From Desulfuromonadales bacterium (lineage in GTDB: Bacteria > Desulfobacterota > Desulfuromonadia > Desulfuromonadales > BM103): a stretch of DNA of 14,475 nt. A program made the position numbers and the translations under genes. The notes beneath the pieces were generated by a model. The model was not told where the DNA came from. It ran no database searches and saw only the letters and a program-made list of their open reading frames with translations. Below, one piece after another: positions 2,259 through 11,755 of the stretch (positions are counted from its first letter, which is position 1; each line of letters starts with the position of its first letter). The stretch spans positions 1-14,475 of the forward strand of contig DAOWJU010000332.1 of assembly GCA_030640215.1 (NCBI GenBank). Reading direction: 5' to 3'.

Positions 2259-2408
2259 GTAGAGTAGAGAGCAGGTCTCAGCAGCTTTAGGTTTGGCTTA
2301 TCTGTTGCCGTCACTTTCGTCTGACGGTGCCTAAATAACCTCACCATGACTTCTTCAACCAGCCCTCCCTCATCAAACCGTGCGTGCGGTTTTCCCGCAC
2401 ACGGCTTT
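2259..2408 (-). other. Group II intron domains V and VI
   Basis: Domain V reads AAGCCGTG, TGCGG, a GAAAA loop, CCGCA, a CG bulge and CACGGTTT (minus strand, plus 2407-2375). The 8-bp and 5-bp stems and the AGC catalytic triad are as expected. Domain VI follows: its basal strands GAGGGAGGG (about 2370-2362) and CCTGCTCTC (about 2275-2267) pair with one mismatch, and the element ends TACTCTAC with a candidate branch A. The roughly 85 nt between these strands include an inner hairpin CCGTCA/TGACGG (2308-2313 with 2322-2327) and a flanking AGGTT/AACCT pair, so this domain VI is much longer than the usual about 35-45 nt. The structure was folded by eye. Confidence 0.7.
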
Positions 2409-2418
2409 CCGATGTTCC

Positions 2419-3756
2419 TCATCGCAAGGCATGCGCCTTCGTCCAGACTGCTGTTGTCGGCACTTTGTACAGGCCATATTTTTCGTACAAAGTCTTACTG
2501 CTAAACCGGGCGTATCCAGTACCACGATCTCTGACTTTATGGCGTTTTCGCAAGTGCGTTTGCAGCCGTGCTTCAACATGACCCCGTACCTTGACCATTG
2601 TCTTGCTGCAATTGCCATAGTGAAAGTAGTTAACCCAACCTCTTACGGTGGTGTTAACCTCCCACACTATCCCTTCAAGCGGTTTCACCGTTGTAACTCT
2701 TCTCGTGAGTTGAGTCACTCGGTCTTTGATCGTTTGCAGGGCTTTCTTCGAGGGCTGAACATTGGGGTAATATTTCCCCGTTCTTCTGCTGGTCTCCATA
2801 CAGAGGCTAAAGCCGAGAAAGTCGAACTTTTCCTGATAAGCATTGACGGTCTTCGTCTTTGTCTCATTCAAGCTCAGTTCTAACCGCTCCAGAATCTGCC
2901 GTAACACCATCAAGACCTGCCCGGATTGACCTCTCCGACACAGGATGACGATATCGTCTGCGTATCTGACGATGCGGGCACCCAGTTTCTGCTGCAAGTT
3001 GTTCCGCTCCCATATCCTGTCCAGTATGTGCAGGTAGAGGTTGGCCAGCAGCGGTGAGATAACCCCGCCTTGCGGTGTGCCTTTGCGATTGCCCTTGCCG
3101 CCGCCGATGTTCCGTTTCGTTCCATCCTTATCCATTTCCATGACTGGGGCTTTGAGCCACATCTGGAGCAGGTGGAGCATTGCTCCATCACAGATGCGTT
3201 CAGCCACCGTTGCCATGAGTTTGGCATGCGGGATAGTGTCGAAATATTTGGACAGATCGGCGTCGATGACTTCAGCGTACCCGGTGTTCAGGGCATAGGC
3301 GACATCATCAACAGCATCGTGAGCCGACTTCTTTGGTCTGAATCCGTAGGAGGTTTCACAAAAGTCCGCCTCGAAGATCGGTTCGATGACCAGTTTCGCG
3401 GCCATCTGTGCCACCCTGTCCCGGATGGTCGGGATACCCAGGGGACGCTGACTGCCATCCGCTTTTGGTATCAGGACCCGTTTAACGGGATCGGGCTTAT
3501 ACGTCCTGTTTCTCAGTGCATCTTCCAACTCCGCAATAAATGCGGCGACCCCTTCCCGTTCCTCGATGGCCACGAAGGTCACGCCATCAATCCCGGCACT
3601 CCCTTTGTTAGCACGGACAAGGGCATAGGCATGACTGAGGATGTCAGCCCGATAGACCTTGTCGTACAAGGCGTGGAAGCGGAAGGCCGGTTCCTGCTTG
3701 GCCTTGCGATAGAGCTTCCTCTGTAGTGTCCTGATCTTTTCAGGGGTTGTTAGCAT
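2419..3756 (-). CDS. ltrA: Group II intron reverse transcriptase/maturase
   Basis: This 445-aa LtrA-type protein reverse-transcribes the intron during retrohoming and acts as a maturase for splicing. Counted from the chosen ATG, the RT motifs are the ANKGSAGIDGVTF block (about 49-61), IPKADGSQRPLGIPTIRDR (about 96-114), VIDADLSKYFDTIP (about 163-176) with a catalytic Asp, GTPQGGVISPLLANLYLH (about 226-243) and YADD (about 265-268). The maturase X/thumb region follows (FDFLGFS, then VRGWVNYFHYGNCSK). The protein ends at KAHALR with no HNH endonuclease domain visible, so it is an endonuclease-minus type. The ATG at 3756 has GAGGGG about 9 nt upstream; a GTG at 3780 would add 8 residues. The frame is intact and all catalytic motifs are present, so the element may be active. 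Confidence 0.95.
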   Translation of the reverse strand: MLTTPEKIRTLQRKLYRKAKQEPAFRFHALYDKVYRADILSHAYALVRANKGSAGIDGVTFVAIEEREGVAAFIAELEDALRNRTYKPDPVKRVLIPKADGSQRPLGIPTIRDRVAQMAAKLVIEPIFEADFCETSYGFRPKKSAHDAVDDVAYALNTGYAEVIDADLSKYFDTIPHAKLMATVAERICDGAMLHLLQMWLKAPVMEMDKDGTKRNIGGGKGNRKGTPQGGVISPLLANLYLHILDRIWERNNLQQKLGARIVRYADDIVILCRRGQSGQVLMVLRQILERLELSLNETKTKTVNAYQEKFDFLGFSLCMETSRRTGKYYPNVQPSKKALQTIKDRVTQLTRRVTTVKPLEGIVWEVNTTVRGWVNYFHYGNCSKTMVKVRGHVEARLQTHLRKRHKVRDRGTGYARFSSKTLYEKYGLYKVPTTAVWTKAHALR

Positions 3757-4272
3757 ATTTGCAATCCCCTCACCTTCCACTCTTTGGTTGCGTGAACAAA
3801 GTAGGGTTCCTTCCCTCGGGCAGGGTTATGTTGTCCCATGCCCTCAAACGGTACTATGAACCCCTCCGACTCCCGATACAGCCCTTGGCGATTTCGGTCT
3901 CCCTTATACACCTTGGTTGGCACTCCTCACGAGCCACCACATCGGGTCTCCAGCACTGGGTTGAATATCTTCCACAACATGCCATCCCTTCTACCCCGGA
4001 AGATTGCAAGGATCGTTTCCGTTGTCAAAATCCTTGCACAGCGGCCTTCCCCACATGACCATAGGGTCGGCATCTTCAATTGGATTTACGAGGCTACATC
4101 CGGGTTCACTTTCGTTACGGCCTGCTGATTTGCCAATTGGGAACTCACGACCCTCTGTCACCAGAACGCCGCTCCCTTGAACTACCGGGGTGAACGGATA
4201 ACTCCCCGGACGGGACTTCAACCCGCTAGATATCCAACTGTTACTGCGAACGGTCAAGTCTCCGTTTGACAC

Positions 4273-9483: not shown

Positions 9484-10278
9484 TCATTCTGCGTCAACGT
9501 ACTGAGGGCACTGCTGTTGCAGCGCATTCAACAACTCATTGATGCCGTTATAAGATTGCCCTGATGGCTCGACCGGACGCCTGACAACAATGAACTGGCA
9601 ATGTTCATGTTCCGCTGCGCGCCATTTTTCCTCTACTCCACCGACTTGTCCGCTTTCCTTGGTCACCACGACACCGATCTCGTATCTACGAATCAGCGTC
9701 AGGTTGTCTTCATAACTGAAAGGACCACGGCCAAAAATACGGCGGGATGTTTCCAGCCCCGCAGCATTACATGCAGCAACGGAGTCAGGGTGGTTCAACA
9801 CTCTGGCGTAAAGCGGGAGTTGTCTCCTGCTCGCTTGTTCGACATAAGGAGCAAGATGGCGCGATCCAATAGTCAGGAGAATCGGCAGCCCCGATTCGCA
9901 GGCAAGCAATGAAGCCTGCTCATGATCATCAGCATACAACCACGCATCTCTTGGCCCTTGCGTTTCCTGGCGTTGGTAACGCAGGTAGGGGCAACCAGTC
10001 TCTTCACAAGCGTTGCGCGCGTTCCGGTGAACAACCTCCGCATAGGGGTGAGTTGCGTCGACCAGTGCTGAGAAGCCCTGCACCGTGATCAACTCAATTA
10101 GCTCTGAACGGTTCAACCGACCGCTACGACGACTGATCGCAGAATGTTGTCCACTATTTAACGGTTCGTCGGTTGCCGTTGACACAAGCACCTGCCAACC
10201 AAGCTCGGCTAAGCGCAAAGCCAGAGAAGCGGTTTCGCTGGTGCCACCGAGGAGAAGTATCTGTGCTCGTTCCGTCAT
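9484..10278 (-). CDS. cobK: Precorrin-6A reductase (CobK/CbiJ)
   Basis: CobK/CbiJ reduces the macrocycle of (cobalt-)precorrin-6A with a pyridine nucleotide. The 264-aa protein has the N-terminal LLLGGTSETASLALRL (about 8-23), the diagnostic DATHPYAEVVHRNARNAC (about 74-91), LLTIGSRHLAPY (about 134-145) and a C-terminal VVVTKESG block. The ATG at 10278 overlaps the cobJ stop as TGATG, indicating translational coupling; the TTG one codon upstream is an unlikely start. The 35-bp gap to cobA holds that gene's ribosome binding site. The position within the operon matches its pathway role between the methyltransferases. Confidence 0.94.
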   Translation of the reverse strand: MTERAQILLLGGTSETASLALRLAELGWQVLVSTATDEPLNSGQHSAISRRSGRLNRSELIELITVQGFSALVDATHPYAEVVHRNARNACEETGCPYLRYQRQETQGPRDAWLYADDHEQASLLACESGLPILLTIGSRHLAPYVEQASRRQLPLYARVLNHPDSVAACNAAGLETSRRIFGRGPFSYEDNLTLIRRYEIGVVVTKESGQVGGVEEKWRAAEHEHCQFIVVRRPVEPSGQSYNGINELLNALQQQCPQYVDAE

Positions 10279-11054
10279 CAATAATATCCGCGTGGTGTGA
10301 CCATTCGCCCATCAAGAACACAAGTTGTTGAATTGCCAATGATAACTATCGAGCGCATCCCAACCTCTTGCTCAAGAAGATGATCCAGGTCAGTCAAAAC
10401 CAGGCGTTCTTCTTCACTGCCAACGGCAGTTGCAACACCTACGGGGGTTGAACCAGGTCGATGCTCGCGAAAAATTTTTGTCGCCTCTTCCAATTGCATC
10501 ACGCGTTTCTTGCTTCGCGGGTTATATAACGAAACAACCAGATCAGCGGCGGCGACGGCCCCCAGACGTTTTACGATCATTTCCCAAGGGACAAGAAGAT
10601 CACTCAGGCTGATAGTTGCCGAATCAAGCATCAGGGGCGCTCCCATCAAGGCTGCCGCCGAATTAGCGGCCGTCACCCCAGGAATGACCTCCATGTCGAG
10701 ATCGTAGTCCTCTGCTGAAGCCATTTCCATGGCCAACCCTGCCATGCCGTATACCCCTGCATCGCCCGATGAAATCAAGGACACCACCTGTCCGGCCCTG
10801 GCTTGTTCAAGAGCCGCTCGACAACGATCTGCTTCCTGCTTCATCCCCGAGGTGATGACCGTCTGATCCTCGATCAGATCTTCTACTGCCTCGATATAAG
10901 GGCCATAGCCAACAACAACATTACTGTCTTTGATCGCCTTCCCTGCTCTTGGGGTACGATCGACAACGCTGCCCGGACCTATGCCAACGAGGAACAGTTT
11001 TCCTTGGCTATTGCTATGGTGATGCCGTTGAAGGCTGTTTTTTTCAGTATTAAT
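10278..11054 (-). CDS. cobJ: Precorrin-3B C17-methyltransferase, non-canonical start
   Basis: CobJ/CbiH methylates C17 and contracts the corrin ring using SAM. The core is clear: LFLVGIGPGSVVDRTPRA, then VVSLISSGDAGVYGMAGL, VIPGVTAANSAAALMGAPL and a C-terminal GNSTTCVLDGRMVTPRGYY. The start is the oddity. The frame is open from 11258, but no ATG, GTG or TTG occurs after 11258, and the conserved N-terminus begins only near 11000, inside the end of cbiG. Candidates are ATT at 11054, with AAGGAG 6 nt upstream (258 aa, used here), CTG at 10997 (239 aa, the usual family length but with a cramped AAGGA), or a -1 slip from cbiG at the A7 run (11038-11044). The stop overlaps the cobK ATG. Confidence 0.88.
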   Translation of the reverse strand: MNTEKNSLQRHHHSNSQGKLFLVGIGPGSVVDRTPRAGKAIKDSNVVVGYGPYIEAVEDLIEDQTVITSGMKQEADRCRAALEQARAGQVVSLISSGDAGVYGMAGLAMEMASAEDYDLDMEVIPGVTAANSAAALMGAPLMLDSATISLSDLLVPWEMIVKRLGAVAAADLVVSLYNPRSKKRVMQLEEATKIFREHRPGSTPVGVATAVGSEEERLVLTDLDHLLEQEVGMRSIVIIGNSTTCVLDGRMVTPRGYY

Positions 11055-11755
11055 GACGTTCTCCTTCCAGATAGCAATGCTGCCGGTTCTGCAACCGCTG
11101 GCAGATTGACTTGCTGTTGTACGAAGTCTGATGACTCGTATGTCAGATGACTCATGCGAATCAGCTCCGAATCGATAATCCGTAGTGGTAGTTCCAATTC
11201 CTCGGCAGCCTGTAACAAGCCCGACTCTGACTGTTTTACATCGGCAGTAGCAAGGCAACGGACCTGATCAAGACCGACTCCGATCAATTTCATTGCCGTC
11301 ATTATCGCAGCACGAATCTCCATTGCACTCTTACCCTTTCGACAGCCGACACCGACGACAAGATCTTTCACAGCCTCCGTGGTTGTGGAAACAACTGGTT
11401 CTGCGCCGGTCAGGTTGGCAATATCGTTTGCCAACTGATTAGCACCTCCTTCATGACCACTGAGCAGGCTTATGGCATAACGTGCCCCGACATCCAGACA
11501 AACCACCGCAGGGTCTCCAAGCTTATGCTTGACCAGAGGGGCAATGGCGCGCACAACCACACCGCAGGGGGCAATAAAGACAAGGCCGCCATAACGACTG
11601 AACAGCTCTTCCGTCAGGTCATACACCCGCTCAAAGGAATGGACTCCGCTGGGGGCATCAACCCCTTGATGCAGATACTGGTCAACCTCCATACCGGCTG
11701 CGATCCGTTGCATGACCTTGAAACCTTCGGGTGAAAAGGTGATCACCGCAACCAT
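10979..11755 (-). CDS. cbiG: Cobalt-precorrin-5A hydrolase, short form
   Basis: CbiG opens the lactone of cobalt-precorrin-5A and releases acetaldehyde from C20, a step specific to the anaerobic (early cobalt) pathway. The 258-aa protein has the N-terminal domain (GGLVFIAPCGVVVRAIAPL about 56-74; LLSGHEGGANQLANDIA about 97-113) joined almost directly to the C-terminal domain (VVGVGCRKGKSAMEI about 133-147, through EPAALLSG). The linking middle domain of about 350-residue CbiG proteins is missing. The ATG at 11755 overlaps the cobM stop as TGATG. The last 25 codons overlap cobJ and contain seven consecutive A residues; the zero frame after them (TAFNGITIAIAKE) still looks like a native CbiG end, so CbiG itself is complete. 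Confidence 0.92.
   Translation of the reverse strand: MVAVITFSPEGFKVMQRIAAGMEVDQYLHQGVDAPSGVHSFERVYDLTEELFSRYGGLVFIAPCGVVVRAIAPLVKHKLGDPAVVCLDVGARYAISLLSGHEGGANQLANDIANLTGAEPVVSTTTEAVKDLVVGVGCRKGKSAMEIRAAIMTAMKLIGVGLDQVRCLATADVKQSESGLLQAAEELELPLRIIDSELIRMSHLTYESSDFVQQQVNLPAVAEPAALLSGRRTSLILKKTAFNGITIAIAKENCSSLA
11038..11044 (-). promoter_or_regulatory. A7 run in the cbiG-cobJ overlap (possible -1 slip site)
   Basis: The minus strand reads CTG AAA AAA ACA in the cbiG frame. A -1 slip on the seven A residues moves ribosomes to AAC AGC CTT, which is the cobJ frame, and would give a CbiG-CobJ fusion. AGGAG lies 16 nt upstream, longer than the roughly 10 nt of the dnaX stimulator. The site is visible; its use is inferred. 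Confidence 0.35.

Follow-up and report, generated by a model that had tools for sequence, protein, structure and literature searches.

The window, which comprises the whole 14,475-nucleotide stretch that was analysed, carries a cobalamin operon on its minus strand. In the 5' to 3' direction, the operon consists of the end of cbiD, genes for two tetrapyrrole methylases, cobM, cbiG, cobJ, cobK, a gene that by eye resembles one for a uroporphyrinogen methyltransferase, and another that resembles one for a siroheme synthase. The cobM/cbiG and cobJ/cobK junctions are TGATG overlaps, and at the former the cbiG ATG at 11755 has its A in common with the cobM stop codon. The cbiG/cobJ junction is unlike these: cobJ lies in the -1 frame, and the overlap is 76 nt long from an ATT to the end of cbiG, whose stop codon ends at 10979. 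The cobJ product scored 304.3 bits against TIGR01466, above the curated cut-off of 246.35, and thus belongs to the CobJ/CbiH family. One CobJ copy was found in the window's genome, a draft of 347 contigs that is 83% complete. The features of the junction are as follows.

10979..11755, minus strand: cbiG, with matches to PF11760 and PF01890, the latter reaching the profile end
10278..11054, minus strand: cobJ (precorrin-3B C17-methyltransferase) from ATT to stop, 258 aa, with matches to TIGR01466 and PF00590; start assigned by comparison
11061..11066, minus strand: putative Shine-Dalgarno sequence AAGGAG, six bases 5' of the ATT and made mostly of cbiG Arg codons; GGAG in 46 of 46 loci
11052..11054, minus strand: ATT, predicted start codon of cobJ, kept in 46 of 47 overlapping loci
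11051..11053, minus strand: cbiG Leu codon TTA over the cobJ start, which would read TGA if the start were any NTG; TTA in 46 of 46 loci
11038..11044, minus strand: run of seven A residues (A7), the suggested slippery site, which lacks conservation
10995..10997, minus strand: CTG, most likely an ordinary Leu codon conserved in the family (CTG 34, TTG 6, CTC 4, CTT 2 of 46 loci)

The open frame of cobJ extends from a TTG at 11258 to the TGA at 10280-10278. As the original prediction from this DNA had stated, the frame contains no ATG, GTG, or TTG between 11258 and the enzyme core. That prediction had considered an ATT start, a start at CTG, a -1 frameshift from cbiG, and a missed eighth A residue, with a slight preference for an unusual start. 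The sequence elements it had named were all found in place: AAGGAG at 11066-11061 is followed by AACGTC and then by the in-frame ATT at 11054-11052, the seven A residues at 11044-11038 are read as AAA AAA A(CA) in cbiG, and the in-frame CTG is located at 10997-10995.

Subsequently, the junction was compared with that of relatives. Searches for CobJ covered 58 relatives, 136 genomes of the window's order, 277 of its class, 395 drawn evenly from its phylum, and 42, 5, 26, 3, and 2 genomes from the classes to which other hits belonged, together with a scan of named contigs. These searches gave 50 distinct loci of the window's CobJ type, which were picked by CobJ similarity and not by ATT; in the classes of G414, G589, G317, and G353, no further loci of this type were found. 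Before counting, we removed L035, L036, L038, L055, L056, and L065 as duplicates identical over the compared stretch, and L074 as the same place as L071; L037, L039, and L040 were counted as genomes of their duplicates. The class and phylum searches were limited to E-values of 1e-78; the partial gene L070 (G078), with a higher value of 6.4e-75, was nevertheless kept. The cbiG match extends beyond the position of the ATT in 47 of the 50 loci (46 by an automatic test, plus L058, whose cbiG match is split in two pieces). Forty-six of these carry the ATT and come from 45 genomes, two loci being from G069. The counts of codons, Shine-Dalgarno pairing, stop codons, and slippery sites given below refer to these 46 ATT loci and leave out the remaining one, L083, which is included in the parsimony analysis of 47 loci.

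The motif GGAG-N6-ATT-A was present in 46 of the 47 loci that overlap cbiG, and these 46 represent ten families, six within the order (f1, f4, f6, f8, f18, and f19) and four outside it (f25, f34, f51, and f79). Within the window's order, all 29 loci of the window's CobJ type that were read, none of them selected by ATT, had the ATT. The A of the ATT is a cbiG third-codon base. The cbiG codon that it closes was TCA in 24 loci, CGA and CAA in 8 each, AAA and GAA in 2 each, and AGA and ACA in 1 each, so that the CbiG residue varies among S, R, Q, K, E, and T. Nevertheless, on a CobJ tree of length 11.7 covering the 47 loci, parsimony required one change at the A of the ATT, one at the next cbiG third base, and one at the cbiG third base within GGAG, versus a mean of 14.0 and a minimum of 7 over 38 upstream third-base columns. 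Among the order's 29 loci, both the A of the ATT and the following cbiG third base showed zero changes, whereas 48 upstream third-base columns had a mean of 7.5 and none was at zero. The retention of ATT in 29 of 29 loci, against this mean, indicates conservation beyond chance. Invariance alone is not specific, since 19 of 74 upstream first- and second-base cbiG columns were also invariant. The third-base columns at +57 and +60 were invariant as well across the 47 loci, which we ascribe to double coding, Gly-Lys in CobJ and Glu-Asn in CbiG.

The pattern of stop codons in the cobJ frame changes at the ATT. Stops accounted for 73 of 1932 codons before the ATT and for none of 874 from the ATT to +62. 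One locus (L113) has a TGA directly before the ATT, and another (L081) has a TAG 12 nt before it. Counted from the last stop in the cobJ frame as far as +81, 17 of the 46 loci contain no ATG, GTG, or TTG. The TTG at 11258 was considered as a common start and rejected, because 36 of the 46 loci contain at least one in-frame stop between -120 and +5.

Pairing with the anti-Shine-Dalgarno sequence was likewise centred on the ATT. The best duplex there averaged -9.9 kcal/mol and was -5 kcal/mol or better in all 46 loci. The corresponding means were -0.9 at -6, -1.1 at +27, -2.8 at +63, and -4.6 kcal/mol at +69, with -5 kcal/mol or better in 0, 2, 7, and 15 of the 46 loci, respectively. The codon 12 nt before the ATT varies (AAG 25, ACG 10, ATG 4, GAG 3, GTG 2, TAG 1, and CAG 1) and is accordingly not a common start. 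Species with ATG or GTG at this codon (6 of 46 loci) or with NTG at +27 (10 of 46) might use other starts.

The in-frame ATG or GTG 12 nt before the ATT was seen in L061, L062, L064, L071, L040, and L070, which belong to one sub-lineage, and in their CbiG a Trp replaces an Arg at this place. Two other members of the sub-lineage, L063 and L066, lack it. Such upstream codons may offer a way of returning to ordinary initiation.

Taken together, the comparison strongly supports initiation at AUU, and frameshifting and a CTG start are rejected on the same ground. We consider it very probable that cobJ begins at the AUU at 11054, six bases downstream of a strong Shine-Dalgarno sequence and within the 3'-terminal part of cbiG. 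The place of this predicted start and its conservation were established by the comparison. The preference of the original prediction for an unusual start was right, and of the elements that it had proposed to align among relatives, ATT and the GGAG of AAGGAG turned out to be conserved and A7 did not. AAGGAG would recruit the ribosome to the AUU, which would then presumably be decoded by the initiator tRNA. The ribosome-binding site would be spelled by cbiG codons for G-R-R-T-x-L.

The overlap offers a candidate reason for the persistence of AUU. The base after the ATT was A in all 46 ATT loci. Consequently, ATG, GTG, TTG, or CTG at this site would create TGA in cbiG in every one of them, and ATA would create TAA, whereas ATT and ATC give no stop. 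The incompatibility of any NTG with cbiG thus emerged from the same comparison as the putative start itself. In the window, a cbiG stop there would cost CbiG its residues 236-259, counting from 11758. Since the CbiG_C match runs to residue 251, the profile end, 16 residues of the domain would be lost. AUU would be kept because it leaves the Leu codon TTA, and we infer that the overlap with cbiG is the reason why AUU persists. The codon choice of cbiG at the site differs from that upstream (at most 200 cbiG-frame codons): the second Arg was AGG or AGA in 46 of 46 loci, against 21% of Arg codons upstream, and the Leu at the start was TTA in all 46, compared with a 6% share of TTA among upstream Leu codons. 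The invariant A forbids NTG, and the overlap gives no reason for this A itself, as a G at that base (TTG) would also keep Leu. The second codon of cobJ was AAT in 29 loci, ACT in 12, and AGT in 5.

The loci that depart from the pattern fit the proposed constraint from the overlap. In L083, cobJ overlaps cbiG but has ATG followed by T, and cbiG is spared. In L077 and L079, which are from one genus, and in L112, no cbiG match was found in the stretch compared, and the candidate starts are ATG, ATG, and TTG, respectively. L077 and L079 additionally retain an ATT two codons 5' of their ATG, though no cbiG match was found there, and this retention is not explained by the overlap.

AUU might also serve as a regulatory device, by which low-level initiation sensitive to IF3 would tune CobJ as in infC and sigR; by analogy, such control of cobJ is conceivable, and we regard it as rather unlikely. 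The following observations speak for it. In 20 of 20 genomes, including the window's own (L094), infC (L084-L103) showed AGGAG(G) a few bases 5' of an in-frame ATA at the N-terminus of the family, so that this group apparently has an AUH start preceded by a strong Shine-Dalgarno sequence. Judging from these sequences, ATA is likely the infC start here; in L089 and L093, the open frame of infC also begins with an ATG or GTG, upstream of the Shine-Dalgarno sequence. The sigR gene of Streptomyces, which starts at GTC, is an IF3-controlled precedent according to the portion of the article available (PMC5472188), and the retention of ATT without overlap in L077 and L079 points in the same direction. 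On the other hand, an NTG candidate lies nearby in the three relatives without overlap, which speaks for the overlap as the chief reason. A combined reading, in which AUU would be held across much of a phylum by the overlap and would place CobJ on IF3-sensitive initiation, coupling corrin-ring synthesis to the stringency of initiation, is speculative and seems improbable to us.

The likeness of cobJ to infC and sigR is partial. With infC, cobJ would share a non-NTG AUH start and, in this group, a strong Shine-Dalgarno sequence; unlike infC, whose product reads start codons and is autoregulated, cobJ encodes a biosynthetic enzyme and would start inside another gene. The excerpts of PMC5472188 record AUU and AUC as known infC starts and report misannotation of infC in Streptomyces. 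They also describe the sigR GTC start as misannotated in public genomes and its repression by IF3 as shown by experiment. A non-NTG start and its misannotation would be common to sigR and cobJ, whereas sigR encodes a sigma factor, begins with GTC, and has experimental evidence for IF3 repression, and the cobJ start was deduced by comparing sequences.

AUU starts outside infC were met only a few times in the literature consulted. The available sections of the respective articles give an AUU start for Borrelia pncA (PMC13398362) and, in S. aureus, an AUU start for cvfC1 and an AUA start for infC (PMC13009471); an AUU start of E. coli pcnB appears there as a cited title (PMC13398362 and PMC13009471). 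These three genes, pcnB, pncA, and cvfC1, resemble cobJ in having AUU outside infC. They differ in their experimental support, and overlap with an upstream gene is not given as the reason in those sections. No report of an AUU start for cobJ was found among the matches listed from the open-licence literature. Starts of this sort are rare but known, and the cobJ AUU would add a new, widely conserved example, for which the proposed reason, based on overlap, is unusual. Because it is conserved across ten families and has a clear candidate reason, single-base changes would allow a test of both the start and the reason, and the case prompts a search of other overlapping gene pairs in which NTG would stop the upstream frame.

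A start at the CTG at 10997 (position +63) is highly unlikely, even though, as originally proposed, it gives the family length. The public CobJ entry of Desulfuromonas acetoxidans (P0002) begins at this position as MSLVGLGPGS, matching CTG TCC CTC GTT GGC of relatives, and CTG or TTG was present at +63 in 40 of 46 loci. However, the codon is CTC or CTT in the other 6, and CobJ proteins with an ATG start farther upstream have this Leu as well. Furthermore, Shine-Dalgarno pairing at the CTG was mostly weak compared with that at the ATT, and a CTG start gives no reason for the stop-free frame from ATT to +62 in 46 of 46 loci.

Fusion of CbiG to CobJ by -1 ribosomal frameshifting or transcriptional slippage at A7 was also proposed, and we consider it extremely unlikely. 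The run does lie in the overlap, with cobJ in the -1 frame relative to cbiG, and a database entry, P0074 (336 aa), shows that a fused frame is present at least once: ahead of the ATT motif, CbiG sequence continues into the cobJ frame, giving a single open frame that carries PF01890 and PF00590. However, A7 occurred in only 3 of the 46 ATT loci. A programmed -1 frameshift is recognized by a conserved zero-frame slippery heptamer, and X XXY YYZ in the cbiG frame was found in none of the 46 loci between -30 and +62. What is conserved is the Shine-Dalgarno sequence and the ATT instead of a slippery site, and no unusual RNA structure was found at the cobJ start in the one sequence examined, that of the window (z -0.26). 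P0074 itself reflects either an indel or a real fusion. Further CbiG-CobJ fusion proteins exist. Like P0074, they join the same two neighbouring B12 enzymes, whereas the window has two frames, which on the AUU reading would give two proteins.

A sequencing or assembly error, by which an eighth A or an ATG would have been missed, has a negligible probability: the genome is a draft in many contigs, but a separately assembled close relative, isolate IMCC39146 (L006/L035; coverage 59 in its title), is identical over the 30 nt before and the 75 nt after 11060, A7 included, and ATT is found in 44 further loci.

Initiation at AUU would bear on the annotation of public sequences. Twenty-eight of the best 120 database relatives are only 189-222 aa long, too short for the start of the enzyme, although truncation at contig ends may account for some of these entries. 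The Desulfuromonas acetoxidans entry begins at the CTG position, as noted above, and others begin at upstream codons. This suggests a systematic wrong annotation of the start in public cobJ entries.

Fifteen more distant loci were read (L041-L051, L014, L018, L025, and L029), the last four being 4 of the 21 loci of another CobJ type (L014-L034). GGAG-N6-ATT was found at this place in none of the 15, and all 15 have an NTG between +42 and +63. L029 (1462-3744), from another genus of the order, encodes a CobJ of another kind, whose ordinary ATG lies close to the core; by eye, a CobQ-like part is read in the same long frame as this CobJ, and frames of similar length recur in the order. Within the window's genus, 8 of 10 congeners besides G000 (G001-G005 and G008-G010, some of these genomes being incomplete) had no CobJ match at an E-value of 1e-40; this B12 gene is thus patchy within the genus. 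Elsewhere in the window, a group II intron with a reverse transcriptase/maturase (2259-4219, minus strand; RF00029, RF02005, PF00078, and PF08388) sits between a gene recognized by eye as rtcB-like and a PCMT gene.
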